This document shows, one piece after another, positions 4,110 through 33,138 of a stretch of 33,364 nucleotides of DNA (position 1 is the first letter of the stretch; every line of letters begins with the position of its first letter). The DNA lies in contig JAJYSJ010000029.1 in the NCBI GenBank assembly GCA_021793645.1, positions 1 to 33,364 of the forward strand, in the 5' to 3' direction. The translations under genes and the position numbers were made by a program. A model generated the notes under the pieces. It worked only from the letters and a program-made list of their open reading frames with translations, was not told where the DNA came from and made no database searches. The DNA is from Bacillota bacterium. GTDB taxonomy: Bacteria > Bacillota > Sulfobacillia > JAJZYS01 > JAJYTV01.

Positions 4110-4126
4110 GGGATGACCGATCTCTG

Positions 4127-4161: not shown

Positions 4162-4189
4162 CGTTGCCACCGCCGCGCCTGCCGGTCAA

Positions 4190-4583: not shown

Positions 4584-4714
4584 GCCAGACAGGAGCGGTA
4601 TCCTCTCAGCAGCGCGGGATGAGGGACAAGTTGCGCAGACGCGGGAGAGGAAGGCATCGCACCGCGTCGAATTTCAGATGGCTCGCAGTGTAGGGCAGCC
4701 GTATGCCGATTCGG

Positions 4715-4729
4715 TCCGCATTTTGCGGA
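4715..4729. promoter_or_regulatory. Short palindrome upstream of the BrxL operon
   Basis: TCCGCA and TGCGGA flank three T residues, ending 30 bases before the first operon ATG. It could be an operator or a leader hairpin. I found no convincing -35/-10 pair nearby, so the assignment is tentative. Confidence 0.25.
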
Positions 4730-4759
4730 TGACGAAGCCTCGACGAAGAGCATCGCTCG

Positions 4760-12082: not shown

Positions 12083-13290
12083 TCACAGGCTACCGGAGCC
12101 CTCGACGTCGAGGAATTCGCCGTCGGGCAGGGCATTGCGGATCGCCCTCTGAACCAGCGCGTAGACGAGATAGGCCATCAGCATGACGTAGCCGAAGGCA
12201 GCGACGCGGGTGGGGCGCTTGAGGAACACCGGGGAGACGTACACAGGGCTCTTCAGCCAGCGGAACTCAGATTCCGCCGCCGCCTGGCCACGGTAGGACA
12301 AGAAGAGATTCTTGGCGGTACGGGACGTGTCGTTGCTGATGAGGACAAAGGTGGACTGCCAGCGGCACTCGCGCTCGAAGGCGTCCCGATCCAGTGCGGC
12401 TGGTGCGAGGTGGATACGGTAGACGGTCGCGCCGGCAGGAGGCTCCTCTGCCTTGGCTGGTCGCCCTCGGCGGCGCGGCGGCTCTATCACCGCTTCCTCG
12501 ACATAGTGCTCCGTGGTCCAAAAACGCAGCCCCAGTTGGCCCAGTAGCGTCTGCAAGGCTGCCTCGGCGTCCTCGTGGCAACTGAAGGTCTCACGCCCGA
12601 TCTTGCGCCCAGCGCGCTGGATCGCTTCCCGCTCCTTGTCCGCCTTGCGCTCCAGAGCCTTCTGCTTGAGCTCGAAGAGCCGCGAGGATCGTACGACGAT
12701 CAGGCGGTACTCCCGCTCCTCGATCTCGCCCGGCAACTGGTACTCGGATGCCTTCTTCTCATGCGCAAGCTTGCCGATGTCTTCCCACTTGTCGGCGGGG
12801 CCATAGAGCGCTTCCGAGCGCGCGACCGTCGCATAGCCGAACGTGTCGGGCAGACGGGAGACGAAACGGTAGCCGCCCTGGTCGAGATGCCTGAGGTTGT
12901 CGCCCGTGATCAACGTCGAGTCGGCCACGAACAGGGTCTGCTGTCGCTTCTCCGGGCCGATCCAGCCCTCGAGCCAGTCGAGCGCCAAGGCCTTGTCGTT
13001 CAGCTGTTCGGCCGCCACCCCTTGCCCGAGCAGCAGTTCCACATCGCGATGCGTGTACGCTTCCTCGATCCGGTAGAGCGCTTTGCGGTCCTCGATGTAG
13101 GCGATCACCAGTGCCAGGATGCGCTGGCCAGGGCTCACGGCGCACTGCATGGGATCCCATGGCAAGAGCTCGTTCAACGTTTCGACGAACTGCATCCGCT
13201 GCACAAACTCCCGCACTACCAAGCCGACGCCCACGTCGTACGCGGCGGCACCTTGATGTGTGAGAGGAAAGTTGCCAGTTCTTCGTCCAT
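12083..13290 (-). mobile_element. IS1634-family transposase, damaged
   Basis: The main frame (12083-13234) encodes 383 residues of an IS1634-type DDE transposase. Recognisable are RILALVIAYIEDRKALYRIE, FVADSTLITGDNL with the first catalytic Asp, YRFVSRLPD, and the C-terminal AESEFRWLKSPVYVSPVFL with the catalytic Glu. A good N-terminus, MDEELATFLSHIKVP, lies at 13290-13246 in another frame and would join AYDVGVGLVV if one base were restored near 13245. The C-terminus stops at EFLDVEGSGSL soon after the last helix, shorter than family members I know. I could not find terminal inverted repeats or a target duplication. It is probably inactive. Confidence 0.75.
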
Positions 13291-13516: not shown

Positions 13517-15232
13517 TCAGGTCACGGTGTAGAGGGGACCTGTCCCGCCCTCCGGCGGCGTCAGGCGGCCGCCCTTGGCAGTGATCGCACCGCACTGCAC
13601 GCAGTTCGCGGAATTGACGATGACGTCGACCGGGCCCGAGGCCGGCGCGTCCTCCGCGATCTCGTAGACTCCTGCGGGGCACATCCAGCGCCACGTTTCC
13701 GCGATCTCCCGCGGCACCTGCTGCTGCACCCGGATGTGGCTTGGCGCGTCGTCCCGGGTGTTGGTGCCCGAGACGTAGACGGAGGAGAGCTTGTCGAAGA
13801 TGTAGCGGCCGTCCGGCTCCGGGTAGGCCGCCTGCTTGTCGCCGATCGCCATCGGCGCGTCGGCGTCAGGTCGATTGCGCCAGCGGCCTCCGGGGAAGGT
13901 TCCGCCGGTCGCCACCATCAGATTGGCGATCGCGCCTCCGGCGAAGAATCCCCGGTCGAAGGGCTGGCGCATGTTGCGCGCGGCGTAGAGCTCGCGCCCG
14001 ATCAGCGACTCCTTGACGCGCCCCTCGTAGGCGGAGAAATCTGTGCCGTCGGCCTTCAACTGCTCGAAGATGGCCTCGGCGGCGTAGATGCCGGAATGGA
14101 TCGCGTAGTGGATGCCCTTGAGGTTCGGCACGTTGACCATGCCCGCGCTGTCGCCGCAGAGCACCATCCCGGGCGCCGAGAGCTTCGGCATCGCCCAGAA
14201 GCCGCCCTCGGGGATGACCTTGGCGCCCCAGGCGACGCGCTCGCCGCCATCGAGGACGCCGCGCACGAGCTGCGAGGTCTTGAAGAGCTGCAGGAGGTCG
14301 TGCGCGGAGACGGTCGCGTCGGTGTAGCCAAGGCCGACGACGAAGCCGATTGAAACCTTGTCCTTGCCCATGGGGTAGAGCCAGGAGCCGCCGAACTCGT
14401 GCCACTTGGCGCCATAGCGCAGCGGCCAGCCCAGCGTATGGATCACGCGGTCGAGCGGCCTGGGAACCTCCCACACTTCCTTGACGCCGAGCGCCCAGAT
14501 CTGCGGCTCGCGGCCCTCCGCGAGGTCGAACTCCTCGATCGCGGCGCGGCCGAGGTGTCCCCACGGACCGTCGGCGAGGACCGTCGCCTTGGCAACGATG
14601 TCGACGCCGGGCTCAAAGTTACCGGACGGCTCACCGTCCCTGCCGCGGCCCTTGTCGCCCGAGCGCACACCTCGCACGATGCCGTCCGTGACGAGGAGCT
14701 GCTGGCCCGCGGTCTCGGTCAGGATGTAGGCACCTGCCTGCTCGGCCTTCTCGGCAAGCCAGCGCGAGAGCTCGGACACGCTGACGACGTAGTTGCCGTG
14801 GTTGCGGAAGGTCGAGGGGGTGGGGCGCAGTTGCAGGGCGGACGTTTCGCTGCGCATCCAGTAGACGCTGTCCCTCTCGACGGTGCCGTAGGTAGGCCAC
14901 TCCGACGGGTCCATCCCGGGGAAGAGCTCCGCGAGCCCGGACGGGCGCATCATGGCGCCGCTCAGGTTATGGGCGCCGCAGACCTTGCCCTTCTCGATCA
15001 CCGCGACGGGCACCTCGCCGAGGCGCTCCATCACCTCCGGGGCGCCCGATAGCAGCTGCAGCAGCCGCACGGCGCACGCGAGACCGGCCGGGCCGCCGCC
15101 GACGATGACAACGCCAGCGTCGATCCTGCTGTCCGCCGGATCGAGCTCGCGCCTCACGGCCTCCCGGCGTAGATCTCCCGGCGGCGGATAGTTGGCCGGC
15201 CTGATTCCGATGTGGTCCTGGACAGATGCCAT
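13517..15232 (-). CDS. Electron-transfer flavoprotein:quinone oxidoreductase (ETF-QO/FixC family)
   Basis: From ATG 15232 the product is 571 residues, the usual ETF-QO size. It has an N-terminal FAD-binding VVIVGGGPAGLACAVRLLQL, the GGHNLSG-like CGAHNLSGAMM, GLxxG middle blocks, a second FAD contact LCGDSAGMVNVPNLKGIHYA, and the C-terminal Fe-S region CPAGVYEI. ETF-QO passes electrons from acyl-CoA dehydrogenases, via ETF, to membrane quinone. The cluster normally uses four Cys; here Cys518, Cys544 and Cys547 are present but the fourth position (550) is Ile in CVQCGAITAKGG, so the cluster may be altered. Residues coded upstream of ATG 15232 look non-coding. No etfAB is in the window. Confidence 0.88.
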   Translation of the reverse strand: MASVQDHIGIRPANYPPPGDLRREAVRRELDPADSRIDAGVVIVGGGPAGLACAVRLLQLLSGAPEVMERLGEVPVAVIEKGKVCGAHNLSGAMMRPSGLAELFPGMDPSEWPTYGTVERDSVYWMRSETSALQLRPTPSTFRNHGNYVVSVSELSRWLAEKAEQAGAYILTETAGQQLLVTDGIVRGVRSGDKGRGRDGEPSGNFEPGVDIVAKATVLADGPWGHLGRAAIEEFDLAEGREPQIWALGVKEVWEVPRPLDRVIHTLGWPLRYGAKWHEFGGSWLYPMGKDKVSIGFVVGLGYTDATVSAHDLLQLFKTSQLVRGVLDGGERVAWGAKVIPEGGFWAMPKLSAPGMVLCGDSAGMVNVPNLKGIHYAIHSGIYAAEAIFEQLKADGTDFSAYEGRVKESLIGRELYAARNMRQPFDRGFFAGGAIANLMVATGGTFPGGRWRNRPDADAPMAIGDKQAAYPEPDGRYIFDKLSSVYVSGTNTRDDAPSHIRVQQQVPREIAETWRWMCPAGVYEIAEDAPASGPVDVIVNSANCVQCGAITAKGGRLTPPEGGTGPLYTVT

Positions 15233-15918
15233 GCGCCTGCGCACCCCTCGCCTCAATCGTTTCGACTCCACACACTTAGCCTGCAATCCTTCTCTGCAGG
15301 GAACGCCAAACCCTGCTCGGCTTGCGGCTTGCGCCGGAGTGGCGCGCCTCCCCGCAAAGTTGGCATGTCCGCGCCGCGTCCCGCTCATACGTCACTTCGT
15401 GCCGTCGCACGGTCAGGAGGTGGTCGCAGCGGGCGGTCGACGTCAGGATCTGTTCGATGCGGCAGGCGCCCTGGCGCAGGTCGCCGGACAGCTGGACAGG
15501 CTGCCTCCCGAGGGCCCGGGAAGCGCGGACGGTCCGCGCGACGCAGGAGCGGCAGCGCAGTGCGGATGCATCGGCCCAGCCGAGGGTAGGGCCAGAAGGA
15601 TCGCAGAAGGACGTCCGCCGGATCGCTTCCGGCGGCGGACGGTTGCGGGCTCGGCCGCACCACGGTCGGAGCCCGTCAGGCAAGCATGGGGCTGACGGGC
15701 ACAAGTCCAGTCGGTAGACCGGACGGGGACGACGATGTCTCCGTCAGCTGGAGGTACCCGTCTGCGGCAATCGCGCCGGGCGGCCGGTGAGAAGGAAGGA
15801 GCCGTCCGTCGTAGCCAGCGCGACGCCTGCGCTCCCGACGCTGGCGACCGGAGGTGCGACAGGACCCGTGTGCTTGCCAACACTCCGAAAGAATTATCCT
15901 GCGGGCAGTCAGGGCAGT
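15233..15918. other. Gap between two leftward metabolic genes
   Basis: No confident gene. The minus strand has an open frame at 15276-15704 whose end contains a Cys-rich stretch (ARTCQLCGEARH) and basic tail, but the start is unclear and composition is arginine-rich as expected of chance frames in GC-rich DNA. The promoter of the ETF-QO gene should lie near 15240-15300; I cannot pick it. Confidence 0.3.
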
Positions 15919-15951: not shown

Positions 15952-16752
15952 TCAAGACTTCGGTGCAGAGGCCGACCGATCGCTCCACAAGGGATCGCGC
16001 TTCTCAAGGAAGGCGCCGATCCCTTCCTTCGCATCGGGCTTCGTACTCTCCGTGACCATCACTTCGCTGGCGTAGGCGAGCGCCTGGAAATCTTCCATTC
16101 CGAGCTGTCGGTAGAATGCTTTCTTGCCCTCGCCCAGCGTGGCCAGGCTGAAGCGGGCGACCTGCGACGCGAGAGCGAGCGCCTCCGACGAGAGCTGCTC
16201 GGGTGACACCACGCGATTGACGAGGCCGAAGCGCTCTGCGTCCTCGGCCGAGATGTACTCGCCGGTGAAGAGCATCTCTGCTGCCTTCTTGCGGGGGACA
16301 GATCGGCCGAGGAACACGGACGGCGTCGTACAGAAGAATCCGATCCGCACGCCCGGAGTTGCGAACCGGGCCTGCGTAGAGGCTACGGCGAGGTCTGCGG
16401 CGGCGACGATCTGGCAACCGGCGGCAGTCGCCACGCCTTGCACCTCCGCGATCACCACCTGCGGGATACCGCGGATCGTGCTCATGACGGCTGCGCAGAC
16501 GGCGAAGAGTTCCTCGACCTCCGGTGGCCCTCCGAACAGGACCTCCTTCAAGTCGTGGCCCGACGAGAAGACAGGCCCGGCGCCGCGCAGGATCACTGCG
16601 TTCACGCGCCCCTCCGACGAGATCCTGCGAAGCTGCACGTCCAAGGCCTCGAGCATGGCCTGCGAGAGCGCGTTCCGCTTCTCGGGGTGGTTCAGGGTGA
16701 GGATGCCGATCCGCTGTGCTTCATGGCTGTCATCGTAGAACACGAGGTCCAC
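15952..16752 (-). CDS. ECHDC3-like crotonase-fold protein
   Basis: A 266-residue enoyl-CoA hydratase/isomerase-superfamily protein. It has GILTLNHPEKRNALS at the start, the oxyanion-hole block FSSGHDLKE, and VQGVATAAGCQIVAAADLA, followed by FATPGVRIGFFCTTP and FTGEYISAEDAERFGLVN. The two Glu residues of true hydratases are replaced (Gln in AAGCQ; Thr-Pro-Gly where PEI/PEV is expected). This matches the ECHDC3 branch, whose reaction is unclear. The GTG start at 16752 is supported by AGGAGGG seven bases upstream. It probably acts on acyl-CoAs in the cytosol. Confidence 0.88.
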   Translation of the reverse strand: MDLVFYDDSHEAQRIGILTLNHPEKRNALSQAMLEALDVQLRRISSEGRVNAVILRGAGPVFSSGHDLKEVLFGGPPEVEELFAVCAAVMSTIRGIPQVVIAEVQGVATAAGCQIVAAADLAVASTQARFATPGVRIGFFCTTPSVFLGRSVPRKKAAEMLFTGEYISAEDAERFGLVNRVVSPEQLSSEALALASQVARFSLATLGEGKKAFYRQLGMEDFQALAYASEVMVTESTKPDAKEGIGAFLEKRDPLWSDRSASAPKS

Positions 16753-17922: not shown

Positions 17923-18177
17923 ATGTCCATGCTAGAGCTCTCCACCCTCCAGGCTCAGAAGATTGTGGACGCGCGCGGAACGGGCTGCCCGGGACCGATC
18001 CTGGCGGCGAAGAAGGGCATCGTCGACGTGAAGGTCGGTGAGATCATGGCGGTCCTTGCGACGGACGGCGGCACCAAGAAAGACCTGCCTGCCTGGGCCA
18101 AGAAGATGGGCCACGAGTTCCTCGGCGTGATCGAGGAGCAGGGGTACTTCAAGCTCTTCGTCAGGCGGGCGAAGTAG
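17923..18177 (+). CDS. tusA: TusA sulfur-carrier protein
   Basis: An 84-residue TusA-family protein with the RGTGCPGPILAAKK signature; Cys22 of CPGP is the persulfide carrier. The rest (VGEIMAVLATDGGTKKDL, W, GHEFLGVIEEQGYFKLFVRR) follows the normal beta-alpha-beta fold. TusA moves sulfane sulfur between proteins in the cytosol. In Hdr-type loci it is thought to hand sulfur from DsrE to the Hdr complex. GGAGGA eight bases before ATG 17923 sets the start; the open frame upstream is long but non-coding in look. It heads the tusA-dsrE-mvhD-hdrA-hdrA-qmoC cluster. Confidence 0.93.
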   Translation: MSMLELSTLQAQKIVDARGTGCPGPILAAKKGIVDVKVGEIMAVLATDGGTKKDLPAWAKKMGHEFLGVIEEQGYFKLFVRRAK

Positions 18178-18466: not shown

Positions 18467-18943
18467 GTGGAGACCACGAAGAAGACCATCATCGTGTTCA
18501 GCGGCGATTTCGACAAGGTCCTGGCCGCATTCATCATTGCGAACGGCGCGGCGGCCATGGGCGACGATGTGACGATGTTCTTCACGTTCTGGGGGCTCAA
18601 CGCCCTGCGAAGGCCCGTGGCTCCGCAGCACGAGAAGAGCTTCCTGCAGGGCATGTTCGGCGGCATGATGCCGCGCGGCCCGGAGAAGCTCGGCCTTTCG
18701 AAGATGAACTTCGGCGGCATGGGCCCCAAGATGATGCGCAAGGTCATGCGCCAAGAGGGCGTGACGTCGCTCGAAGAACTGATCCAAACCGCAAAGGACC
18801 AGGGCATCAAGATGATCGCCTGCACCATGTCGATGGACGTCCTCGGCTTCAAGGAGGACGAACTGATCGACGGGCTCGAGTTCGCAGGCGTCGCCACCTA
18901 CCTAGGCGAGGCCGACGAGGCGAACGTCAACCTCTTCATTTGA
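18467..18943 (+). CDS. dsrE: DsrE-family sulfurtransferase (DsrE3-like)
   Basis: A 158-residue DsrE/DsrF-superfamily protein. It begins with KTIIVFSGDFDKVLAAFIIA, then DDVTMFFTFWGLNAL, a Met/Gly-rich loop, and the active-site region KMIACTMSMDVLGF in which Cys119 should carry the persulfide. The FFTFWGLN and ACTMSMD blocks match the DsrE3-type proteins found with TusA and sHdr genes in sulfur oxidisers. It probably passes sulfur to TusA in the cytosol. GTG 18467 has GGAGG ten bases upstream. It follows tusA with the HdrB-like relic in between. Confidence 0.9.
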   Translation: METTKKTIIVFSGDFDKVLAAFIIANGAAAMGDDVTMFFTFWGLNALRRPVAPQHEKSFLQGMFGGMMPRGPEKLGLSKMNFGGMGPKMMRKVMRQEGVTSLEELIQTAKDQGIKMIACTMSMDVLGFKEDELIDGLEFAGVATYLGEADEANVNLFI

Positions 18944-19312: not shown

Positions 19313-19738
19313 GTGACCAAAACGCTCACGACCGCCGAGGCGTCCCGCAGAGCCTCGCCGCGCGTCCTCGTCTTTTCCACGAACACGATCTCCGACCCTG
19401 GCATCGATCTGGCAGGGAGCAGGCACCTGCACTACTCCCCTGGGGTTGTCGTGATCAGCCTGCCGTGCGCGAGCGGAATCAAGCCGAGCTGGATTCTTCA
19501 CGCACTCCAGCATGGCTTCGACGGCGTGTTCGTCGCCGCGGACGGGGACGAGTGCGCCTACCTATCCGACTGCAGTGTCCGGTCCGCAGGGATCGTCCAG
19601 CAGGCGCAGGCACTGATGGCGGAGCATGGGATCGCCGCGAACCGTGTGAAGATGGCGGCGATCTGCTCTGTGTGCGCGGAACCGTTCACCCGGCAGGTGA
19701 TCGAATTCAGTGAGGCGCTAGCGGAGGCGGTGGTGTAG
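19313..19738 (+). CDS. MvhD/FlpD-like hydrogenase iron-sulfur (delta) subunit, divergent
   Basis: A 141-residue protein with the MvhD fold pattern: RVLVFSTNT strand, SPGVVVISLPCASGIKPSWI, LQHGFDGVFVAADGDECAY, and a C-terminal MAAICSVCAEPF. MvhD normally links a hydrogenase or QmoB-type protein to HdrA through a [2Fe-2S] cluster. Here Cys52, 81, 87, 118 and 121 are present, but the usual N-terminal CCxxC is replaced by STNTIS, so cluster binding must differ from the canonical form. AAGGAGG at 19299-19305 lies seven bases before GTG 19313. The stop directly abuts the start of the large HdrA gene, so the two are surely cotranscribed. Confidence 0.82.
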   Translation: MTKTLTTAEASRRASPRVLVFSTNTISDPGIDLAGSRHLHYSPGVVVISLPCASGIKPSWILHALQHGFDGVFVAADGDECAYLSDCSVRSAGIVQQAQALMAEHGIAANRVKMAAICSVCAEPFTRQVIEFSEALAEAVV

Positions 19739-22462
19739 ATGGACTACGACGTCCTGGTTGTCGGCAGCGGGATCGGTGGCATGGAGTCGGCGATCAAGCT
19801 TGGCGACATGGGCTACAAGGTCCTGCTGGTAGAGAAGGAAGGCAGCGTGGGCGGACGCGTGATCCTGCTCAGCAAGGTCTTCCCGACCCTCGACTGCGCC
19901 AGCTGTATCACGACGCCGAAGATGGCGGCCACGATCCATCATCCCAACATTACCGCCATGACCTACAGCGAGGTGCTGGGCATCCGGCGTGCAAGCGACA
20001 CACACTTTCGCGCCTCGGTGCGCCAGAAGGCCCGCTATGTCGACGAGGCCGCCTGCACCGGCTGCCAACTGTGCGAGACGGCCTGCACGGTGGCCGTGCC
20101 GGACCAGTTCAACGCAGACCTCGTCGCACGCCGTGCGGCCTACATCCCGTTTCCACAGGCCGTGCCGAAGAAGGCCATCATCGAGCGCGTGGGCACCTCT
20201 CCGTGCACCGACACCTGCCCGGCGGGCATCAAGGCCCACGGCTACGTGTCGCTCATCCGCAGCGGCAAGTACGAGGAAGCCTTTCAGCTGGTCCTCGACG
20301 CGACGCCGCTGGTGGGGTCGCTCGGAAGGGCCTGCTACGCACCGTGCGAGAGCGAGTGCACCCGCGGCGAACTCGAGGGATCGATTCCGATCCGCCGACT
20401 GAAGCGCTTCGTCGCCGACCGGCACTACCGCGAGATGGACGGCCCGGGCGTGACCCCTGCGGAGCCCAACGGCAAGAGCGTTGCGATCGTCGGATCCGGA
20501 CCGGCCGGCCTGACGGCCGCCTGGCAGCTGGCGCGCAGCGGCTACCGAGTGAAGATCTTCGAGGCGGCCGCCGAGCCGGGCGGGTTCCTGCGCTACGCGC
20601 TTCCCACCTACCGCTTGCCGCAGGAGGTCGTCGAGCAGGATATCCGCAACGTGACCGCTCTCGGCGTCGAAATCGCCACGAGCGCCCCGGTGCGGGATCT
20701 GGGCGCACTGAGGCTCGATGGATACGACGCGGTCCTCCTGGCGACCGGCACTCCGCACTCGACCAGCCTGGGCGTGCCCGGCGAGGAGATCGAGGGCGTG
20801 CTCGGTGGCCTCGACTTCCTGCGCGAGGTGCGGCGCGGCGAGACGGCTGACCTGCAAGGCAAGCGCGTGGTGATCGTGGGCGGCGGCAACGTGGCGATGG
20901 ATGCGGCGCGCACCGCCCGGCGGCTGGGCGCCGTGGAGACCGTGGTCGCCTACCGGCGCGGCCGCGAGGAGATGCCCGCGCACAAGGCGGAGGTCGACGA
21001 CGCCGAGGCGGAGGGCGTGGAGCTGCGCTTCCTGGTCGCCCCGGTCGAGGTGGTCGGCGACGCAGCCGGCCGGGTCCAGGGCCTGCGCTGCCAGCGCATG
21101 GAGCTGGGCCAGCCCGACGCGTCCGGCCGCCGGCGCCCCGAGCCGGTCCGGGGCAGCGAGTTCGTCATCCCTTGCGAGGCGGTGGTCGCCGCGATCGGCA
21201 TGGTACCCGACACGGACTCCTTCGCAAGGATGGTTTCCATCGGCCCGAGCCACCGCGTGAAGGTCGACCCGAAGACCTTGCAGAGCGAGGTCCCGTATCT
21301 CTTTGCGGCAGGCGACGTCGTGATGGGCCCGTCGGACATCGCCCGCGCCGTTGGACAGGGCCGGCGTGCGGCCTTCATGATCGACCGCTGGCTGCAGGGC
21401 CGCGAGCTCGCCGGATTCAGCGCCTTCGACGAGCGGTTGGGCGTCGTTGACAAGACGCAGGTGCTGGCGCGGCAGAAGAAATACACACATCGCGACCCGG
21501 TGACGGTGAACGCCGCACGATTGTCCGCGCCAAGAGACTTCGCCGAGATCGAGCCGCCGATGACCGAGGATGAGGCGCTGGCCGGTGCGGGTGGCTGCAT
21601 TGACTGCGGCGTCTGCTCAGAGTGCGGACAGTGCGTTGCCGCCTGCCCCCCCGCTGCCATTGACCTCAACATGCGCGAGCGCACCTTCGACGTGGAGGTC
21701 GGCGCCGTCGTCGTATCCACGGGCTACAAGCTCTTCGCCGCCGACCTGAAACCCGACTACGGCTTCGGCAAGTACCCCAACGTCATCACCGCCATGCAGA
21801 TGGACCGCCTCATCGCTCCCACGCGGCCGTTCAACACGGTGCTGCGCCCCGGCGACGGCAAGGTTCCCGAGCGCATCGCCTACGTGATGTGCACCGGCTC
21901 GCGCGACAAGACGGTGGGCAACCCGCTCTGCTCCAAGATCTGCTGCATGTACTCCACCAAGCAGAACCAGCTGATCATGGGCACCTTGCCGCTCGCGGAC
22001 GTGACCGTGCACTACATCGACATCCGCGCGGCCGGCAAGCGGTACGAGGAGTTCTACCAGCAGGCGAAGGCGATGGGAGCCAACTACATCAAGGGGCGCG
22101 TCGCGAAGATCACCGAGAAGGAGGACGGCAACCTGATTCTCCGCTACGAGGACATCGAGAACGGCGGCGCGATCGTGGAGGCCGAGTACGACCTTGTGGT
22201 GCTCGCGGTCGGCGTCCAGCCCAACCGCGAAGCGGAGCGCCTCTTCATCGACGAGCCGCTGGGACTTGACGACTACTACTTCGTCGCCGAGCCGAACGAG
22301 GACCTGGACCCTGGCAAGACCAGCATCCCCGGGGTCTTCGTAGCCGGCGCGGCATCCGGAACCAAGGACATCGTCGACACGATCCTGCACGCAGGTGCCG
22401 CGGTCGCCCAGGTGGCGGCCCATCTCGAACAGGGGAACACCACGAAGAAGGTGCCGGTATGA
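19739..22462 (+). CDS. hdrA: HdrA fused to an inserted GltD/NfnB-like flavoprotein module
   Basis: A 907-residue multi-domain protein. Residues 1-~95 form the HdrA FAD fold (VVGSGIGGMESA, then LDCASC). Residues 106-116 give a CxxCxxCxxxC cluster motif. Residues ~155-600 are a complete GltD/NfnB-like module: CTDTCPAGI and CYAPCESEC for Fe-S, GSGPAG (252-257) for FAD, and VVIVGGGNVAMDAARTARR for NAD(P)H. The C-terminal ~300 residues resume HdrA with CIDCGVCSECGQCVAACP, CSKICCMYSTKQ and a final VAGAASGTKDIVDT FAD contact. It could pass electrons between NAD(P)H, FAD and Fe-S centres, perhaps with bifurcation. Its stop overlaps the next ATG. Confidence 0.9.
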   Translation: MDYDVLVVGSGIGGMESAIKLGDMGYKVLLVEKEGSVGGRVILLSKVFPTLDCASCITTPKMAATIHHPNITAMTYSEVLGIRRASDTHFRASVRQKARYVDEAACTGCQLCETACTVAVPDQFNADLVARRAAYIPFPQAVPKKAIIERVGTSPCTDTCPAGIKAHGYVSLIRSGKYEEAFQLVLDATPLVGSLGRACYAPCESECTRGELEGSIPIRRLKRFVADRHYREMDGPGVTPAEPNGKSVAIVGSGPAGLTAAWQLARSGYRVKIFEAAAEPGGFLRYALPTYRLPQEVVEQDIRNVTALGVEIATSAPVRDLGALRLDGYDAVLLATGTPHSTSLGVPGEEIEGVLGGLDFLREVRRGETADLQGKRVVIVGGGNVAMDAARTARRLGAVETVVAYRRGREEMPAHKAEVDDAEAEGVELRFLVAPVEVVGDAAGRVQGLRCQRMELGQPDASGRRRPEPVRGSEFVIPCEAVVAAIGMVPDTDSFARMVSIGPSHRVKVDPKTLQSEVPYLFAAGDVVMGPSDIARAVGQGRRAAFMIDRWLQGRELAGFSAFDERLGVVDKTQVLARQKKYTHRDPVTVNAARLSAPRDFAEIEPPMTEDEALAGAGGCIDCGVCSECGQCVAACPPAAIDLNMRERTFDVEVGAVVVSTGYKLFAADLKPDYGFGKYPNVITAMQMDRLIAPTRPFNTVLRPGDGKVPERIAYVMCTGSRDKTVGNPLCSKICCMYSTKQNQLIMGTLPLADVTVHYIDIRAAGKRYEEFYQQAKAMGANYIKGRVAKITEKEDGNLILRYEDIENGGAIVEAEYDLVVLAVGVQPNREAERLFIDEPLGLDDYYFVAEPNEDLDPGKTSIPGVFVAGAASGTKDIVDTILHAGAAVAQVAAHLEQGNTTKKVPV

Positions 22463-24183
22463 GCGAGCGACGCATTGGCGTCTTCATCTGCCACTGCGGC
22501 GGGAACATCTCCGACTACGTGGACGTTGCGCAGGTCCGCGACGCCATCAAGGACGAACCGGATGTAGTGGTCGCCCAGACCACGATCTTCGCCTGCGCCG
22601 ACGCCACCCAGCAGGACATGGTGCAGGCCATCCAGGACGAGCAACTCGACGGCCTCGTGGTGGCGTCCTGCTCACCCAAGCTGCACACGTTCACGTTCCG
22701 CGGCGTGGCGAAGCGGGCAGGCATGAATCCCTACCTGTACACCCAGGTGAACATCCGGGAGCAGGACTCCTGGGCCCACACCGACGACCCCGTCGGAGCG
22801 ACGGAAAAGGCGATCCGCCTCGTCAAGGCGGGCATCGCCAAGACCCGGCTCTCAAGCCCCCTCGAGCCCATCGAGGTCGAGACGACGCCGAAGACGATGG
22901 TGATCGGCGGGGGCATCACGGGACTGCGAGCGGCCATCGGCCTTGCGGACATCGGCCTCGGCGTCTATCTGATCGAGCGCGAACCGGAACTCGGCGGGTG
23001 GGTGGCGCAGTTCGGCGCGATGTACCCGCATGAGCGCAAGGGGCGGGAGCTGATCCAAGAGCTGGTCGCGGAGGTGCGCAGGCGTCCCTCCATCGTCGTC
23101 TTCACAAAGGCTGAGCTCATGGCCAAGTCGGGCAGCTTCGGCAACTACCTCACAGAGGTGCGCGTCAATAGCGGCGTGCCCGACCTGATCCATCTCGAGG
23201 TCGGATCGATCGTGGTGGCCACCGGCTTCGACGCGTACCAGCCGGAGGTCGGCGAGTACGGGTATGGCATCGACGGGGTCCTCACCCTGCCGGAATTCAA
23301 GGCCCTCATCGACAGCTCCGAGGGATCTCTCACGTACCACGGCCGGAAGGTGGGCACGGTCGCCTACATTTACTGCGTGGGCAGCCGGCAGCCCGAAGGC
23401 AACGCGTACTGCTCGCGGTACTGCTGCGCGGCCACGGTGCACGCCTCGCTGAAGGTGGCGGAGATCGACCCGAAGCTGCACCAGTACCACCTCTACCGGG
23501 ACATCCGCACCTACGGCAAGTACGAGCTGATGTACACGGAGTCCCGAGAGCGCGGCTCGGTATACATGAAGTTCCCCGAGGACACGCCGCCGGCGGTGGC
23601 ACGAGGCGCGTCCGGACAGCTCACGGTCACGACCCACGACACGCTCACTGGCGGCGAGGAACTCACCATCCCGGCCGACCTCGTGGTCCTCGTCACCGGC
23701 ATGGTGCCGCGGCGGAATGACACGCTGATGAGCGTCCTCAAGCTGCCCATCGGAAGCGACGGGTTCTTCAACGAGATCCACCCCAAGCTGCGCCCGGTCG
23801 AGACCGTCGTCGACGGCGTCCTGATCGCAGGCACGTGCCAGGGACCCAAGAACTCCTCCGAGAGCGTCGCTTCGGGCCTCGCGGCGGTGACGCAGAGCGG
23901 GGCCATCCTGAAGAAGGGCGTGGCCGAGCTCGATCCGCTCGTGGCCACGGTGAACACCACGGCCTGCACGTGGTGCGGCAAGTGCGAGGAGACCTGCCCG
24001 TACGCCGCCGTCGAGAAGACATCCGCCGACGGGCGAGAGGTGGCGGCGATCAACGCCACCGTCTGTAAGGGCTGCGGCGGATGTACCCCAGTCTGTCCCG
24101 AGGGCGCGATCGACCTGCGCGGCTACACCGACGCCCAGATCCAAGCCATGATCGAGAACCTGGCGGAGGTGCCGGTCGTATGA
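22459..24183 (+). CDS. hdrA2: Second HdrA-like flavoprotein with two C-terminal [4Fe-4S] motifs
   Basis: A 574-residue HdrA. The N-terminus RIGVFICHCGGNIS and a CSPKLHTFTF block are standard HdrA. The FAD fold is at ~150-185 (MVIGGGITGLRAA, REPELGGW). CSRYCCAATVHASL matches the Fe-S-binding CSxxCCxxxxK region. Two ferredoxin-like motifs close the protein: CTWCGKCEETCPYAA and CKGCGGCTPVCPEGA. It would form the electron-transfer core with the fused HdrA upstream, as QmoA and QmoB do. Four-base ATGA overlaps link it to both neighbours. Which HdrA faces the membrane subunit cannot be told from the sequence. Confidence 0.92.
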   Translation: MSERRIGVFICHCGGNISDYVDVAQVRDAIKDEPDVVVAQTTIFACADATQQDMVQAIQDEQLDGLVVASCSPKLHTFTFRGVAKRAGMNPYLYTQVNIREQDSWAHTDDPVGATEKAIRLVKAGIAKTRLSSPLEPIEVETTPKTMVIGGGITGLRAAIGLADIGLGVYLIEREPELGGWVAQFGAMYPHERKGRELIQELVAEVRRRPSIVVFTKAELMAKSGSFGNYLTEVRVNSGVPDLIHLEVGSIVVATGFDAYQPEVGEYGYGIDGVLTLPEFKALIDSSEGSLTYHGRKVGTVAYIYCVGSRQPEGNAYCSRYCCAATVHASLKVAEIDPKLHQYHLYRDIRTYGKYELMYTESRERGSVYMKFPEDTPPAVARGASGQLTVTTHDTLTGGEELTIPADLVVLVTGMVPRRNDTLMSVLKLPIGSDGFFNEIHPKLRPVETVVDGVLIAGTCQGPKNSSESVASGLAAVTQSGAILKKGVAELDPLVATVNTTACTWCGKCEETCPYAAVEKTSADGREVAAINATVCKGCGGCTPVCPEGAIDLRGYTDAQIQAMIENLAEVPVV

Positions 24184-24434
24184 GCGCCACGCCGAACCGG
24201 GACATCCGGGAGATCATCCGGGAGGAGCCGCTGATGCACCGCCCCATCCTCAAGGCGCTGGCGGCAGGGCCGCTGACCGTCCCCGAGATCGCCGAGGCGA
24301 TCGGCCGTCCGGCCGACGAGGTCCTGTTCTGGGTCATGGGAATGCGCCGCTACGGCATGGTCACGGAATCGAAGGATCCCACCGATGAAGGCTACTTCAG
24401 CTACGGAGCGGTGGGCGGGGGGGTGCCTTCATGA
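24180..24434 (+). CDS. Small winged-helix-like protein inside the hdr/qmo operon
   Basis: An 84-residue protein with a compact helix-turn-helix pattern: ILKALAAGPLTVPEIAEAIG, RPADEVLFWVMGMRRYGMV, then a beta hairpin. This is like MarR/ArsR-type winged helices but without extra domains. It overlaps both neighbouring genes by four bases, so it is made in step with the complex. It might be a regulator, but such tight coupling in the middle of the operon also allows a structural or assembly role. No metal or Fe-S ligands are seen. Confidence 0.8.
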   Translation: MSATPNRDIREIIREEPLMHRPILKALAAGPLTVPEIAEAIGRPADEVLFWVMGMRRYGMVTESKDPTDEGYFSYGAVGGGVPS

Positions 24435-25606
24435 GCGCGCTGGTCGATGCGAGTCTTTTGGCCGACATCAAGCAGTTCGGGGCGGCGGACGTGTCGGCTT
24501 GCTTCAGCTGTGGCAACTGCACTGCGGTCTGCCCACTCTCGAGCAACGACGGGACCTTCCCGCGGCGCATGATCCGCTATGCCCAGGTCGGCATGAAGGA
24601 CGCCCTGCTCTCGAGCAAGGAGCTCTGGACCTGCTACCACTGCGGCCTTTGCTCCGACACCTGCCCCACGCAAGCCGACCCCGGCGGGTTCATGGCGGCG
24701 GCCAGGCGCTACGCCATCGCAAACTACGACCGGACGCGGCTCGCGTGGACCATGTACACGAAACCGGTGCTCGCCACGCTGATCGCGATCCTGCTGGCGG
24801 CGTTCTTCGCTGTCTTCATGTACACGTCCCACGGCCCGCAGAGCGCGACCTCCCTGGCGTTCTTCCAGTTCATTCCCGAGGGACTGATCCACATGACGGG
24901 CGTCGTGGTGATGAGCCTGGCGGTGCTGGCGGGGCTGGTGGGGGTCGTCACGATGGCCAGGGGAATCTCCCGTCGGGAGGGCAGCCGCCGCAAGTCGCCT
25001 CGCGATGGGCGCGCGCCCGGCGCACGGTTCTGGAAGGCGCTTTGGGTCGCGCTCGGGGTCGAGTCGCTCGGGCAGCGCAGGTATCGCGCCGACTGCGCGA
25101 CGGTCCAGGAAGAGAGGCCCTGGTACCGCCGCCGCTGGCTGATCCACTCGGCGACCATGTGGGGGTTCCTGGGACTCCTGTTGGCGACCCTCCTCGACTA
25201 CGGCCTGTCCCTGATCGGGGTCAAGGCCACGGGGACGCTCGTTCCGATCTGGTATCCCGTACGGCTGCTCGGTACGGTTGCCGGCCTTGCCCTGGTCTAC
25301 GGCGTCAGCATGTTCATTGTCGACCGGCTGCGCCGTGAAGGCCAGGCGGCGAAGCAGTCGGAGGCTTCGGACTGGACCCTCCTGGTCCTGCTCTGGATCA
25401 CCGGGGTGAGCGGGTTCATCATCGAGCTTGCCCTCTACCTGCCGCACCCGCCGGCTTGGGGATACTGGGTGTTCCTGTTCCACGTATCGGTGGCCATGGA
25501 GCTGGTGCTGCTCGCGCCGTTCATGAAGTTCGCCCATGCGGTGTACCGGCCGGTGGCGCTGTTCTTCTGGGCCCTTGCGGGCGACGAAGCGAAAGAGAAC
25601 AACTGA
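24431..25606 (+). CDS. qmoC: QmoC-like HdrC-cytochrome b membrane subunit
   Basis: A 391-residue fusion. Residues 1-~90 are HdrC-type with two [4Fe-4S] motifs, CFSCGNCTAVCP (Cys24, 27, 30, 34) and CYHCGLCSDTCP (Cys68, 71, 74, 78). From ~115 it is a NarI/HdrE-like membrane domain with about five to six helices. Likely haem b ligands are the His residues in EGLIHMTGVV, RWLIHSATMWG and FLFHVSVAMELV. This is the QmoC layout and implies electron exchange between the HdrA proteins and membrane quinone. A loop at ~185-230 is basic and cytoplasmic by the positive-inside rule. It is the last gene before a strong terminator. Confidence 0.92.
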   Translation: MSALVDASLLADIKQFGAADVSACFSCGNCTAVCPLSSNDGTFPRRMIRYAQVGMKDALLSSKELWTCYHCGLCSDTCPTQADPGGFMAAARRYAIANYDRTRLAWTMYTKPVLATLIAILLAAFFAVFMYTSHGPQSATSLAFFQFIPEGLIHMTGVVVMSLAVLAGLVGVVTMARGISRREGSRRKSPRDGRAPGARFWKALWVALGVESLGQRRYRADCATVQEERPWYRRRWLIHSATMWGFLGLLLATLLDYGLSLIGVKATGTLVPIWYPVRLLGTVAGLALVYGVSMFIVDRLRREGQAAKQSEASDWTLLVLLWITGVSGFIIELALYLPHPPAWGYWVFLFHVSVAMELVLLAPFMKFAHAVYRPVALFFWALAGDEAKENN

Positions 25607-25927: not shown

Positions 25928-26263
25928 TTGCAGGACATGCGGCAGTATAAGGCCCAATTCTTCCAGGCGTTGGCCAACCCGCATAGGATTCAGATCTTGG
26001 AGATCCTACGCGAGCGACCGAAAACTGTCAGCGAGTTGCAGGCGAAGATGGGGGTTGAGGCCTCCAACATATCGCAGCAGCTTGCGATTCTGCGCAAGCA
26101 GCACATCGTTTACGGGACGAAAGACGGCACCTCCGTCATCTACGACGTCAAGGATCGGCTGGTCTTCGAGATTCTCGACGTGAGTCGCAAGATGTTCCAG
26201 AACCAACTGGCCGAATTGCAGTCCGCGGTTTTGCAAGACACATCCGGTCGGGGAGCGGACTAA
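25928..26263 (+). CDS. ArsR-family winged-helix regulator
   Basis: A 111-residue single-domain regulator of the ArsR/SmtB type: FFQALANPHRIQILEILRE, VSELQAKMGVEASNISQQL with the recognition helix, LRKQHIVYGTKDGTSVIYDV wing, and a C-terminal dimer helix. It contains no Cys, so the ELCVCDL-type metal site and the thiol switches of BigR/SqrR are both absent; its signal is unknown. The start could be TTG 25928 or ATG 25937; neither has an ideal ribosome binding site. It lies in front of the hyf genes on the same strand and probably controls them and itself. Confidence 0.85.
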   Translation: MQDMRQYKAQFFQALANPHRIQILEILRERPKTVSELQAKMGVEASNISQQLAILRKQHIVYGTKDGTSVIYDVKDRLVFEILDVSRKMFQNQLAELQSAVLQDTSGRGAD

Positions 26264-26307: not shown

Positions 26308-28266
26308 GTGTCCTTGGTCGCATCGCTCTTGGCGCTCTGGGACCGCCCCGGCACCCGGGCGGCGAACCACTACCTCGAGATCTTCCAGTCGCTCCTGACC
26401 CTGGCGCTCGGCGTCCTCGGTCTGCTCGGCCCCGCCGCCAACGTGGCGATCGCTACGATCTGGGGGAGTTGGACGCTGCAGGTCGGCATCGACCCGCTGT
26501 CCAGCTTCTTCCTTGCCGTGCTCGGCATCGTGCAACTGGCTACGGCGGTGTACGGGACGCGATACACGCTGCACTACACACGGGGACAGCAGGTTCTTAT
26601 ACGCACTCTAGTGCCGCAGTTCACAATGTCGATGGCCCTTGTGCTGGTCGCGCGCGATGCGATCACGTTCCTCATCGCCTGGGAACTCATGTCCCTGACG
26701 TCGTTCGGCCTCGTCGTGGTGGAACACCACCGTGGGGAAGTGCGCAAGGCGGGCTTCCTCTACCTAGTCGCGACACACACTGGCGCGCTCGCGCTGATGG
26801 GCCTCTTCGCCGCGCTGGCGGCACATGGACTCGGAACCGGATTCCAGAGCTATGCGCACGGCGTGCCGCTCCTTGGCACGGGGCTGCGGTCCCTCCTGCT
26901 CCTGGCCGGGCTCGTGGGGTTCGGCAGCAAAGCGGCCATCGTGCCGTTCCACGTCTGGCTGCCTCGCGCGCATCCGGTCGCGCCGAGCCATGTGTCCGCC
27001 CTCATGTCCGGGGTGATGATCAAGGTCGCCATCTATGGGCTCGTCCGCCTCGTCTTCGGCTGGCTCGGAGTAGGGCCGCTCTGGTGGGCGATGCTGCTCA
27101 TCGCGGTCGGCGTCACCTCGTCCCTAGTGGGCGTGCTCTACGCCTTGATGGAGCACGGCCTGAAAAAGCTGCTCGCCTACCACAGCATCGAGAACGTGGG
27201 CATCATCGTCCTCGGCCTAGGCGCAGCCGCACTCGGGCGCAGTCTGGGTGATCCCATCCTGTACGAGTTCGCGCTCGCGGCCGCGCTCTTCCACGTGCTC
27301 AACCACGCGATCTTTAAGTCCGGACTGTTCCTCACAGTCGGATCGGTGCGCGCAGCCACCGGAACCGACGATCTCGAGCGGCTCGGCGGACTCGCACGGA
27401 TCATGCCCTGGACTACCGGCGCCTTCGTGGTGCTCTCGATGGCGATCGTCGGACTGCCGCCCTTCAACGGCTTCGCGAGCGAGTGGATGACGCTGCAATC
27501 GCTGCTGCGGCTGGCGCACGGTGCCGCACCGGCGGTGATGGCCGCTGCCGTCGTGGGGGCGCTCGGCCTCGCACTGACGGGCGGGCTGGCCGGGGCGTGC
27601 TTTGTCAAGGCCGCCGGCGTCGGCTTTCTCGGCCCGCGGCGCACGGCTGGCGCCGGCGCCGTCCGCGAGGCGGCGTGGCCCATGTTGGCCGGTCCCTTGG
27701 CGCTCAGCGCGCTCTCGCTTGGGCTCGGGCTGGTCCCGGGCGTCCTAGGTTCCCTGGGCATGCGCATCGCCGCAGGGCTCGCCCAGGTGCGCCTCGGCCG
27801 GACGCCCTCCGCCCTCGCGCTCTCCGTCCCCTGGACGCGCCCCGACCGGCCTCTCTACCTTTTGCTCGGGGCGGCGGCGGGCGCCCTCGTCCTGATGTTC
27901 GCCCTGCGCCGCGGCACGCGCACCCAAGCCGTCCGTCCGCCCTGGGCGTGCGGCGGTGAAGTGGCCGTCGCGAACGCCTACACCGCCACCTCCTTCAGCA
28001 AATCGATCCGCCAGATCTTCGCGACGTTCTACCGGCCGCAACGCTCACTGGTGCGCGTGGGGACAACGCTTCCCTACCTGCCGGCGGACGTTCGCTATGA
28101 AAGCGCGGTCCGCCACGTCATCGACCAGCACCTCTACCTTCCCGTGCAGCGCGGGGCGCTGCGGTCGGCGAGATTCCTGCGCCGCCTGCAGTCCGGGTCG
28201 CTGCGCCAGTACATCGGGTACCTGCTCTTCACACTGCTGCTGGCCCTGGTCACAGTTGGACGCTGA
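26308..28266 (+). CDS. hyfB: HyfB-like proton-pumping antiporter subunit of group 4 hydrogenase
   Basis: A ~652-residue polytopic protein of the NuoL/MrpA/HycC type with about 14-16 helices. Key features: FLIAWELMSLTSF with the conserved Glu in the fifth helix region, GFGSKAAIVPFHVWLPRAHP with the pumping Lys, LSGVMIKVAIYGLVR, and KKLLAYHSIENVG. The C-terminal ~100 residues are soluble and helical, as in HyfB. It would translocate protons during hydrogen turnover. GTG 26308 is used, but the frame stays open upstream with hydrophobic residues (GAGLLALVGVSLVASLL), so the true start may be a non-ATG codon near 26265 at the end of the regulator gene. Confidence 0.88.
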   Translation: MSLVASLLALWDRPGTRAANHYLEIFQSLLTLALGVLGLLGPAANVAIATIWGSWTLQVGIDPLSSFFLAVLGIVQLATAVYGTRYTLHYTRGQQVLIRTLVPQFTMSMALVLVARDAITFLIAWELMSLTSFGLVVVEHHRGEVRKAGFLYLVATHTGALALMGLFAALAAHGLGTGFQSYAHGVPLLGTGLRSLLLLAGLVGFGSKAAIVPFHVWLPRAHPVAPSHVSALMSGVMIKVAIYGLVRLVFGWLGVGPLWWAMLLIAVGVTSSLVGVLYALMEHGLKKLLAYHSIENVGIIVLGLGAAALGRSLGDPILYEFALAAALFHVLNHAIFKSGLFLTVGSVRAATGTDDLERLGGLARIMPWTTGAFVVLSMAIVGLPPFNGFASEWMTLQSLLRLAHGAAPAVMAAAVVGALGLALTGGLAGACFVKAAGVGFLGPRRTAGAGAVREAAWPMLAGPLALSALSLGLGLVPGVLGSLGMRIAAGLAQVRLGRTPSALALSVPWTRPDRPLYLLLGAAAGALVLMFALRRGTRTQAVRPPWACGGEVAVANAYTATSFSKSIRQIFATFYRPQRSLVRVGTTLPYLPADVRYESAVRHVIDQHLYLPVQRGALRSARFLRRLQSGSLRQYIGYLLFTLLLALVTVGR

Positions 28267-28282
28267 CGCGGGGGGATTGGTC

Positions 28283-29176
28283 ATGGGTTCCGTGCTGCAG
28301 GTCACCCTTCTCTTGGCCCTTGCGCCCCTTGCCCAGGGGGTCACCCAGTCCGTGAAGGCCCGGTTGCAGGGGCGCAGGGGCCCCTTGCCGTGGCAGCCGT
28401 ACGCCGTCGCCCTGAAGCTCCTGCGGCGGCAGGCGGTGTGGCCGCAGGGCTCGACCGCCGTGATGCGCGCGGCGCCCTTCGTGCATCTGGCCGCCATCGC
28501 GGTTGCGGCCGCGTCCCTGCCCCTCTTCTCCGCGGCGGGGGCGTCGGAGATCCTCTTGCCCCTCTTCGCGCTGGCACTCGCACGGTTCGCGCTAGGCCTC
28601 GCGGCGCTCGACACGGGAACGCCGTTCGCCGGTCTCGGGAGTAGCCGCGAGATGACGATCGGCGCGGTCGTGGAGCCAGTGCTCCTCGCGAGCCTGCTCC
28701 CCTGGGCGGTCGTCGCCGGAAGCACGGCGTGGCCTGCGCTCGTACAGGCGTCGCTGGGCATGGGCGTCTTCAGCGTCGTCCGGCTCGCAGCGTTCGCCGC
28801 CGCCTTCCTCGTGCTCGTGGCGGAGACGGGCCGCCTGCCGGTGGACAACCCCGACACACACCTCGAGCTGACCATGATCCACGAGGCGATGGTTCTGGAG
28901 TATTCCGGGCCTCCGCTGGCCTTGATCCTCTGGGGCACGTGGCTGAAGCAGATCTTCCTCGTCGCCCTCGTGGCGGTCCTCGTGTTCCCCTGGGGACTCG
29001 CGGGTCCTTACGGACTGCTTTGGACGGCAGGCAAGTGGCTTCTGCTACTGGCTGCCCTGGGCGTTTCCGAGTCCCTGACGGCGAAGATGCGATACCTCAG
29101 GGTTCCTGCCTACCTCGCGACTTCCCTCGCCCTCTCCCTGTCCGCACTGGCGCTGCAAGCTGCGGGGGTGCACTGA
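28283..29176 (+). CDS. hyfC: HyfC-like (NuoH-type) membrane anchor subunit
   Basis: A 297-residue membrane protein of the NuoH/HycD family with about eight helices. The diagnostic loop ETGRLPVDNPDTHLELTMIH followed by EAMVLEYSGPPLALI is the NuoH region that contacts the large subunit and forms the quinone or proton entry path. The N-terminal VTQSVKARLQGRRGPLPWQ block is also typical of HycD/HyfC. ATG 28283 follows a GGGGGGA stretch. It begins 16 bases after hyfB and ends one base before hyfE. Confidence 0.92.
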   Translation: MGSVLQVTLLLALAPLAQGVTQSVKARLQGRRGPLPWQPYAVALKLLRRQAVWPQGSTAVMRAAPFVHLAAIAVAAASLPLFSAAGASEILLPLFALALARFALGLAALDTGTPFAGLGSSREMTIGAVVEPVLLASLLPWAVVAGSTAWPALVQASLGMGVFSVVRLAAFAAAFLVLVAETGRLPVDNPDTHLELTMIHEAMVLEYSGPPLALILWGTWLKQIFLVALVAVLVFPWGLAGPYGLLWTAGKWLLLLAALGVSESLTAKMRYLRVPAYLATSLALSLSALALQAAGVH

Positions 29177-29177
29177 G

Positions 29178-29807
29178 ATGACCTGGACGAACGCGCTTTC
29201 CGACCTCCTGGTGGCCACGGCGGTGCTGCCCGTCCTGCTGCAGCGCATGCGCCCAAGTGTGTTTGTGCTTGCGCTGCAAGGCCTGCTGCTCGCCGCGGTC
29301 GCGGTAGTCTTCAATCCGAACCCGGCAGGCATCCTGACGGCGGTCCTCGTGCTCCTTGCGAAAGTGATCGCCGTACCGTGGCTTCTGCACCGTACTGCCG
29401 AGCGTGCGGCCGCGTATGCGCTCGTCGAGAAGGTGACGCCCTGGACCTATCTCGGCGTCGTCGGGGTGCTTCTCGCGGTGCGGCTGCTCAGCGCGCACAT
29501 CGCCCCAGCCGCCTTCGGCGCGACCGCGGGACATCTCGCCTCGGCCGCGCTCGCTGCGACCATGCTCGGTCTCCTCGTCGTTGCGACGCGGCGCCTTCTG
29601 CCGAGCCAGATGCTCGGCCTCGCGCTGACAGAGAACGGGCTCTATGCGGCCGGCGCAGCGCTCGCGCACGGCCTGCCGCTGCTGCTCGACCTCGGCGTCC
29701 TGCTGGACCTCCTGCTAGCCCTCCTGCTCCTCGCGTGGCTGACGGGCCACGTCCGTGACGCATGGGGCCATGTGGACGCCGACCAACTGAACGGACTGCG
29801 AGGCTGA
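29178..29807 (+). CDS. hyfE: HyfE-like membrane subunit
   Basis: A 209-residue, very hydrophobic protein with about six helices. The C-terminal block SQMLGLALTENGLYAAG, then LPLLLDLGVLLDLLLALL, matches the NuoK-like half of HyfE, including the Glu in ENG and the acidic residue in the next helix. HyfE fuses a NuoK-like part to extra helices. Its start is one base after the hyfC stop, and hyfF follows after two bases. In complex I the equivalent Glu helps carry protons. Confidence 0.88.
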   Translation: MTWTNALSDLLVATAVLPVLLQRMRPSVFVLALQGLLLAAVAVVFNPNPAGILTAVLVLLAKVIAVPWLLHRTAERAAAYALVEKVTPWTYLGVVGVLLAVRLLSAHIAPAAFGATAGHLASAALAATMLGLLVVATRRLLPSQMLGLALTENGLYAAGAALAHGLPLLLDLGVLLDLLLALLLLAWLTGHVRDAWGHVDADQLNGLRG

Positions 29808-29809
29808 CG

Positions 29810-31213: not shown

Positions 31214-31217
31214 CGGG

Positions 31218-32678: not shown

Positions 32679-32694
32679 ACAAGGAGAAATGGAC

Positions 32695-33138
32695 ATGGAG
32701 TCAGGCGGCAGGCTGATCGGCCGTTCGTTGGCGCTGCGGCACGTGGACTGCGGCAGCTGCAACGCGTGTGAATCGGAACTCGCGATGTTGTTCAGCCCCG
32801 ACTACGATGCGCAGCACAGCGGGATCGACATGGTGGCGAGCCCGCGACATGCTGACGGGCTGATCGTGACCGGTCCGGGCACAAGACAGATGGCGGATGC
32901 CCTGGCGCGCACCCTCGAAGCGGTCGGCGAGCCGCGCCTCGTCGTAGCGCTCGGGGACTGCGCAGTCTTCGGCCATGTGCACAAGGGCGGCTATGCGGCG
33001 GGCAGCGGGATCGGAGCGCCCCTGGCCGCGGACCTGGAGATTCTTGGCTGTCCGCCTGCACCAGGCGAGATCCTGCAGGCGCTTCGCCGGCTGATGCGGG
33101 AGGGCGCATCGGGGGAACGCGCAGCAGCTACAAAGTGA
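32695..33138 (+). CDS. hyfI: HyfI-like small subunit (NuoB-type, proximal [4Fe-4S])
   Basis: A 147-residue NuoB/HycG-family protein. CGSCNACESEL gives Cys19, Cys22 and Cys25, and Cys89 (ALGDCAVFG) and Cys119 (GCPPAPGEIL) complete the set for the proximal [4Fe-4S] cluster next to the nickel site. ATG 32695 is chosen over ATG 32689 because AAGGAG at 32681-32686 is eight bases from the former but only two from the latter. It is the last recognisable gene of the operon; ferredoxin subunits HyfA and HyfH do not follow within the window. Confidence 0.92.
   Translation: MESGGRLIGRSLALRHVDCGSCNACESELAMLFSPDYDAQHSGIDMVASPRHADGLIVTGPGTRQMADALARTLEAVGEPRLVVALGDCAVFGHVHKGGYAAGSGIGAPLAADLEILGCPPAPGEILQALRRLMREGASGERAAATK

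Follow-up and report, generated by a model that had tools for sequence, protein, structure and literature searches.

What would an HdrA flavoprotein do that carries a complete NADPH module inside its own fold and is encoded beside a quinone-linked membrane subunit and two sulfur carriers? Work on electron bifurcation by HdrA has dealt mostly with strict anaerobes, with ferredoxin as the low-potential acceptor. Here we analyze such a gene in a window of 33,364 nucleotides (the whole stretch of DNA that was analyzed), which belongs to the genome of a member of the Bacillota (G000; 3.40 Mb, 96.3% complete).

Architecture of the fusion protein

The open reading frame starts with an ATG at position 19739, ends with a stop codon at 22460-22462, and encodes 907 amino acids with no internal stops. 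Profile and phmmer matches, conservation and an AlphaFold2 model identified the product (19739-22462, + strand) as an HdrA with an inserted NADPH module of the GltD/StnC type, the architecture of type III HdrA. The first part of HdrA (19739-20188, +), which was recognized by phmmer against solved HdrA and by cysteines conserved in 48 of 48 sequences, holds the FAD site, C56 and the first ferredoxin-domain motif (C106/109/112/116). It is followed by the GltD module (20192-21607, +), with C156/C160/C199/C203/C207, K222, an FAD-binding GxGxxA motif, R292, GGGNVA and YRR405-407, and C620/C623, and by the second part of HdrA (21614-22459, +), with the motif C626/629/632/636, the cluster C718/731/735/736, D689 and K741.

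Residues 1-150 were matched by phmmer to residues 146-290 of solved HdrA and residues 621-900 to residues 288-569, and residues ~152-560 plus a linker to ~632 matched proteins of the GltD/NfnB/StnC type. The insertion point lies after the first [4Fe-4S] motif of the ferredoxin domain that is itself inserted in HdrA, and the HdrA sequence picks up again at the second motif. An AlphaFold2 model of the 907-residue protein was built with 30 sequences from the window and the locus (pLDDT 87.9, pTM 0.84). When the insert (~151-620) was skipped, residues 1-900 of the model superimposed on solved HdrA (8rvu_a; Z 48.0, 1.9 Å, 424 residues), and the predicted HdrA fold stays intact. The best structural matches of the insert, obtained with residues 151-636, were NfnABC (9bov_A; Z 49.4, 1.7 Å, 471 residues) and StnC (8oh5_C; Z 47.7, 1.9 Å; 469-471 residues across the NfnABC/StnC matches); the match to NfnB was lower (4ylf_B; Z 38.0, 2.0 Å). 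Alignment and superposition thus agree with the initial annotation, which had HdrA split after its first cluster by a full flavin- and nucleotide-binding module and then resuming. Because the same junction occurs in dozens of independent contigs, the fusion is no accident of assembly.

The fusion was reported in 2022 for HdrA 9, 10 and 11 of ANME-1, with an NfnB insertion (PMC9012536), and corresponds to the "type III HdrA" of a 2025 survey, which counted nine sequences from ANME-1 and Bathyarchaeota with partners from methane metabolism (PMC12054007). The window protein has the same traits, namely an HdrA core with FAD site and four-cysteine cluster, and a GltD/NfnB module of about 500 amino acids that interrupts the ferredoxin domain between its two cluster motifs. 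By its own standard, the initial annotation would fall if the fusion were a common and already characterized form; this applies by half, since the fusion has indeed been described (PMC9012536, PMC12054007), but not characterized biochemically. The present version differs from the archaeal one in that it is bacterial, lacks HdrB, and is accompanied by QmoC, TusA and DsrE2.

Cofactor sites and type of the insert

Site conservation was assessed in 48 sequences, of which 33 are short forms and 15 are longer relatives. Among the 21 cysteines that are putative ligands, only C623 varies (47/48; it differs in one long form), and K222 and K741 are kept in all 48. Alignment to solved HdrA equates Cys197 with C56 and the cluster C386/399/403/404 with C718/731/735/736. 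The key residues of bifurcating HdrA, K409 and E356, correspond to the invariant K741 and to D689, respectively, the latter being an aspartate in nearly all of the clade.

The insert has counterparts of the NfnB cluster ligands given in PMC7596348 at C160, C199 and C203 (proximal cluster) and at C156 and C207 (distal cluster). The Cys39/Cys42 pair of NfnB is absent from the N-side of the insert; its place is probably taken by C620/C623, which come from the C-side in the motif EAxxxAGxCxDCG. The position of NfnB Glu117 is occupied by Lys222 in 48/48 sequences and aligns with K170 of StnC, which ligates the StnC cluster (PMC10482914). With the C620/C623 pair and K222, exactly eight ligands would be available for two clusters. 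The initial annotation had credited the module with Fe-S ligands of its own; these (C156/160/199/203/207, K222 and C620/C623) are conserved, as are the proposed FAD and NADP sites. The NADP site consists of GGGNVA (381-386) and YRR (405-407), and YRR binds the phosphate of NADPH in NfnB (PMC7596348), which makes NADPH a likelier cofactor of the window copy than NAD. In contrast to this NADP-type combination of GxGxxA and YRR, a GxGxxG motif was reported for archaeal type III HdrA, which has been read as NAD-type (PMC12054007).

The lysine ligand, the C-terminal CxxC and the fold of a StnC-type GltD module are all present in the insert; the glutamate ligand to the proximal cluster of bifurcating NfnB is not. 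A tree that combined inserted with free-standing modules placed the inserts apart from free-standing Glu-type (LERF) NfnB-like proteins and near free-standing Lys-type (LKRF) modules, with several deep forks weakly supported. The trees contain no sequences of ANME-1 or Bathyarchaeota and are compatible with either one or several origins of the insertion among bacteria. As in StnC/NfnABC, the Lys-ligated NADPH module is directly followed by an Fe-S domain, and because the superposition extends through residue 636, both segments appear to be arranged as in the electron-conducting StnC (PMC10482914). In StnC, however, the module is joined to a NuoG-like domain, with an FMN bifurcating module serving it, whereas here it lies within HdrA. 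The label "NfnB-like" of the initial annotation is therefore correct as to GltD homology, but not as to the bifurcating flavin that it implied, given Lys222 in place of Glu117 and the position near the Lys-type modules. With an insert of the StnC type, in which this flavin does not bifurcate, HdrA's own FAD would be the only candidate for a bifurcating flavin.

The operon, its spread and its host

The fusion gene is part of an operon with the order tusA-(dsrE2)-mvhD-hdrA::gltD-hdrA2-wHTH-qmoC. The TusA-type sulfur carrier (17923-18177, +; Pfam TusA 4.6e-20; Cys14 of the analyzed stretch in 30/30) occurs in essentially every operon copy, whereas dsrE2 is shifted or missing in some; the DsrE2-type carrier of the window (18467-18943, +) matched Pfam DrsE_2 (5e-66), has C119 in 22/22 sequences and scored 101 bits against an NCBIfam DsrE2 cut-off of 210. 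An MvhD/FlpD-like electron-transfer subunit is encoded by a separate gene (19313-19738, +; Pfam FlpD 1e-25; start inferred). Hydrogenase-linked MvhD is expected to have an N-terminal cysteine pair, which this protein lacks; it has five other invariant cysteines (30/30), including those of ICSVC, and any cluster that it binds may be of an unusual kind.

The second HdrA (HdrA2; 22459-24183, +) has an N-terminal and a C-terminal Fe-S domain, both of which are missing from HdrA::GltD; its C-terminal two-cluster domain is intact, and it lacks the Cys197 equivalent. Such a complementary pattern has been interpreted as a heterodimer (PMC9012536). With histidine and lysine at the positions of K409 and E356, HdrA2 is unlikely to bifurcate. 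A small conserved protein (24180-24434, +), wHTH-like by eye and without an NCBIfam match, is always encoded between HdrA2 and QmoC/HdrC. The QmoC-like membrane subunit (24431-25606, +) has two [4Fe-4S] motifs and a cytochrome b part, with eight cysteines, His154 and His239 conserved in 21/21 and the further heme histidines His351 and His369 in 20/21 sequences. ATGA overlaps link hdrA::gltD, hdrA2, the wHTH gene and qmoC. The second HdrA and the quinone-linked subunit were already recognized in the initial annotation and are both in place, though the latter is below the NCBIfam qmoC cut-off (201.5 vs 300 bits); TusA, DsrE2 and MvhD of the conserved operon had been overlooked. No gene for HdrB (CCG) was found among the scanned ORFs of the window.

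The operon with the short form was found in relatives and in 26 named genome records labeled Bacillota, Chloroflexota, Actinomycetota and Bacteroidota, some copies being cut by contig ends. The Bacteroidota carrier is Petrimonas sp. IBARAKI, whose circular genome was assembled from a Dehalococcoides culture (PMC5940944). In the core-HdrA tree, the short forms make up one clade (100/99, 32 rows) across phyla, which suggests horizontal transfer. HdrA::GltD has three architectures: the short form of the window, which lacks the N-terminal domain, a long form that continues into HdrA2 in the same chain, and a complete HdrA that has an N-terminal domain of its own. Because HdrA::GltD and HdrA2 are one polypeptide in other lineages, they probably work together or in contact. 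Some family members have a sister operon that retains TusA, MvhD, HdrA::GltD and HdrA2, with HdrC and a CCG-domain HdrB in place of QmoC. YRR is present in 20/20 operons with close QmoC and in 1/9 with HdrB, which have CLE (by its sequence an acidic, NADH-like motif) in 8/9 cases; this association is suggestive only, and weak as independent evidence because the operons belong mostly to one clade. The TusA-DsrE2-QmoC operon, its bacterial spread and the switch between QmoC and HdrB were not found described in the literature searched, which did not include the HdrA-module review of Appel et al. 2021. What appears to be new is the sulfur- and quinone-linked gene set across several bacterial phyla; the fusion itself was previously described in archaea.

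The host genome encodes MenD (menaquinone synthesis) and two strong matches to haem-copper oxidases. AprA was not found above cut-off in the host and five relatives (six genomes), and there was no sulfite-reductase-domain protein in the host and no sulfite/nitrite reductase domain in the family (G000-G009). An assimilatory role was not deduced from this absence, which is unspecific, since the domain is missing from 46 of the 61 class genomes. A role of RuBisCO as NADPH sink was dropped because the host has none.

The window also contains an ArsR/SmtB-type regulator (25928-26263, +) between qmoC and a Hyf/group-4-hydrogenase-like cluster (26308-33138, +; HyfB, C, E, F, G, I), whose HyfG-like protein retains CGxC (RTCGSCSAAH) and a C-terminal CxxC (LCYACCDR). 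This cluster was rejected as low-potential partner because it is not adjacent in the other operon copies read and because the regulator lies in between; orthologues (76-81%) lie on other contigs in three relatives (G002, G003 and G004), in some of which adjacency is possible because the operon contig ends soon after qmoC. Upstream of tusA, on the opposite strand, are genes for an enoyl-CoA hydratase (15952-16752, -) and an ETF-quinone oxidoreductase (FixC)-like protein (13517-15388, -). An IS1634-family transposase (12083-13234, -) separates the latter from a partial BREX-like set (3276-9953, +) with a Fic-like gene, a pair of overlapping BrxD-like ORFs that may be one split gene, and BrxL.

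Proposed electron path and alternative readings

Our preferred reading, which is tentative and to which we assign a little less than an even chance, is that type III HdrA, MvhD, HdrA2 and QmoC form a Qmo-like membrane complex that joins NADP(H), menaquinone and carrier-bound sulfur, with sulfur-derived electrons being split at the HdrA FAD, or the reverse. Cofactor sites, fold and operon are supported by sequence and model; we infer the electron path, its direction, the sulfur substrate and bifurcation, the last of which is possible. With its StnC-type NADPH module inserted into the ferredoxin domain of a HdrA/QmoA-like flavoprotein, the complex would connect NADP(H) with menaquinone by electron exchange, with TusA and DsrE2 serving it. 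From NADP(H), electrons would first reach the GltD FAD and then, in turn, the proximal cluster (C160, C199, C203, K222), the distal cluster (C156, C207, C620, C623), both clusters of the ferredoxin domain in HdrA and the HdrA FAD, and from there would pass through QmoC (two clusters, two hemes b) to menaquinone; HdrA2 and MvhD would be a third arm. In the likeliest mode, electrons from the sulfur carriers would enter via MvhD/HdrA2, since MvhD is the entry site of H2-derived electrons, and would be split at the HdrA FAD into a high branch to quinone and a low branch to NADP+, or flow in the opposite direction. We take NADP+ as the candidate acceptor of the low branch because the insert is located at the site from which ferredoxin receives its low-potential electrons in type I HdrA.

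This reading accommodates the HdrA fold with its StnC-like arrangement, the invariant ligand cysteines, K222 and K741, the NADPH motif, the conserved operon with its ATGA overlaps, the complementary HdrA2 and its fusion to HdrA::GltD elsewhere, MenD in the host, the conserved active cysteines of TusA and DsrE2, and the HdrC/HdrB paralogue with its retained partners. Against it stand the aspartate at the position of HdrA E356, operon copies lacking DsrE2, the cysteine pattern of MvhD, and the two haem-copper oxidases of the host, beside which one would not usually expect an oxygen-sensitive reaction that is strongly uphill. An enzyme without bifurcation, either a linear NADPH:menaquinone oxidoreductase or an NADPH-dependent reductase of persulfide bound to TusA/DsrE2, is less likely but the most serious competitor: the insert belongs to the StnC type, which does not bifurcate (PMC10482914), the HdrA2 flavin lacks the bifurcation residues, the host is probably aerobic, and with DsrL there is a precedent for NAD(P)H acting on sulfur via a GltD-like module (PMC7596348). 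It would, however, leave unexplained the strict conservation of K741, C718/731/735/736 and C56, which are residues of bifurcating HdrA, and two HdrA proteins would be superfluous for a plain NADPH dehydrogenase. The initial annotation had instead combined NAD(P)H, quinone and a low-potential Fe-S branch in one complex, for bifurcation or confurcation. In the form considered here, NADPH, as mid-potential donor, would have its two electrons split to menaquinone (via QmoC) and a low-potential ferredoxin. The NADPH and quinone sites of this scheme exist, K741 is retained, the intact C-terminal domain of HdrA2 could serve ferredoxin, and NADH was proposed as mid-potential partner of archaeal type III HdrA; in that published model, however, the insert takes up the ferredoxin-reducing domain and blocks the separate low-potential outlet (PMC12054007). 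The operon moreover has no ferredoxin gene, and TusA and DsrE2 are left unexplained; we regard this scheme as unlikely.

Two bifurcating flavins in one protein, one NfnB-like and one of HdrA, were suggested for ANME-1 HdrA 9-11 (PMC9012536). The homology of the insert to NfnB and the retained R292 (the equivalent of NfnB R201) are in line with this proposal, but the invariant lysine for Glu117 is shared with StnC, whose flavin hands on NADPH electrons without bifurcation and which also keeps the arginine (PMC10482914); a second bifurcating site is disfavored here and would be a considerable surprise. Still less credible is a classical Qmo complex feeding APS reductase. The layout of two HdrA-like subunits and a membrane QmoC with hemes b is that of QmoABC, but the QmoA-like subunit contains an NADPH module, a gene of its own encodes MvhD, QmoC is distant and below its family cut-off, no AprA scored above cut-off in the host and five relatives, and there is no sulfite-reductase domain. 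A role in APS reduction is thus ruled out for practical purposes and refuted for the host unless the assembly happens to have lost AprAB. With HdrABC-MvhD of methanogens and acetogens, the locus shares the HdrA core, MvhD, the Cys197 and K409 equivalents and, in the paralogous operon, HdrC and HdrB; it differs in the GltD insert and in an operon that lacks genes for hydrogenase, formate dehydrogenase and MetFV. TusA and DsrE2 beside HdrA-like genes recall sHdr sulfur oxidation, but no gene for a lipoate-binding protein was seen in the operon (no LbpA profile was used), and the window copy has no HdrB.

If the preferred reading of a Qmo-like complex is correct, a type III HdrA whose host makes menaquinone and carries oxidases would show the ferredoxin site rewired to NADP(H), and TusA/DsrE2 would gain a new partner beyond the known sHdr and Dsr pathways. 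The locus argues against the insert supplying a second bifurcating flavin. The two sister operons, with quinone or disulfide and an NADPH- or NADH-type motif, would make the coupling testable by comparison. In its widest form, which we consider doubtful, this would be a widespread undescribed bacterial complex with a single HdrA flavin as the meeting point of carrier-bound sulfur, menaquinone and NADP(H). Respiring bacteria could then use sulfane sulfur to produce NADPH and quinol in a single step, and a sister complex would have NAD(H) and a disulfide (HdrB) instead of NADP(H) and quinone.
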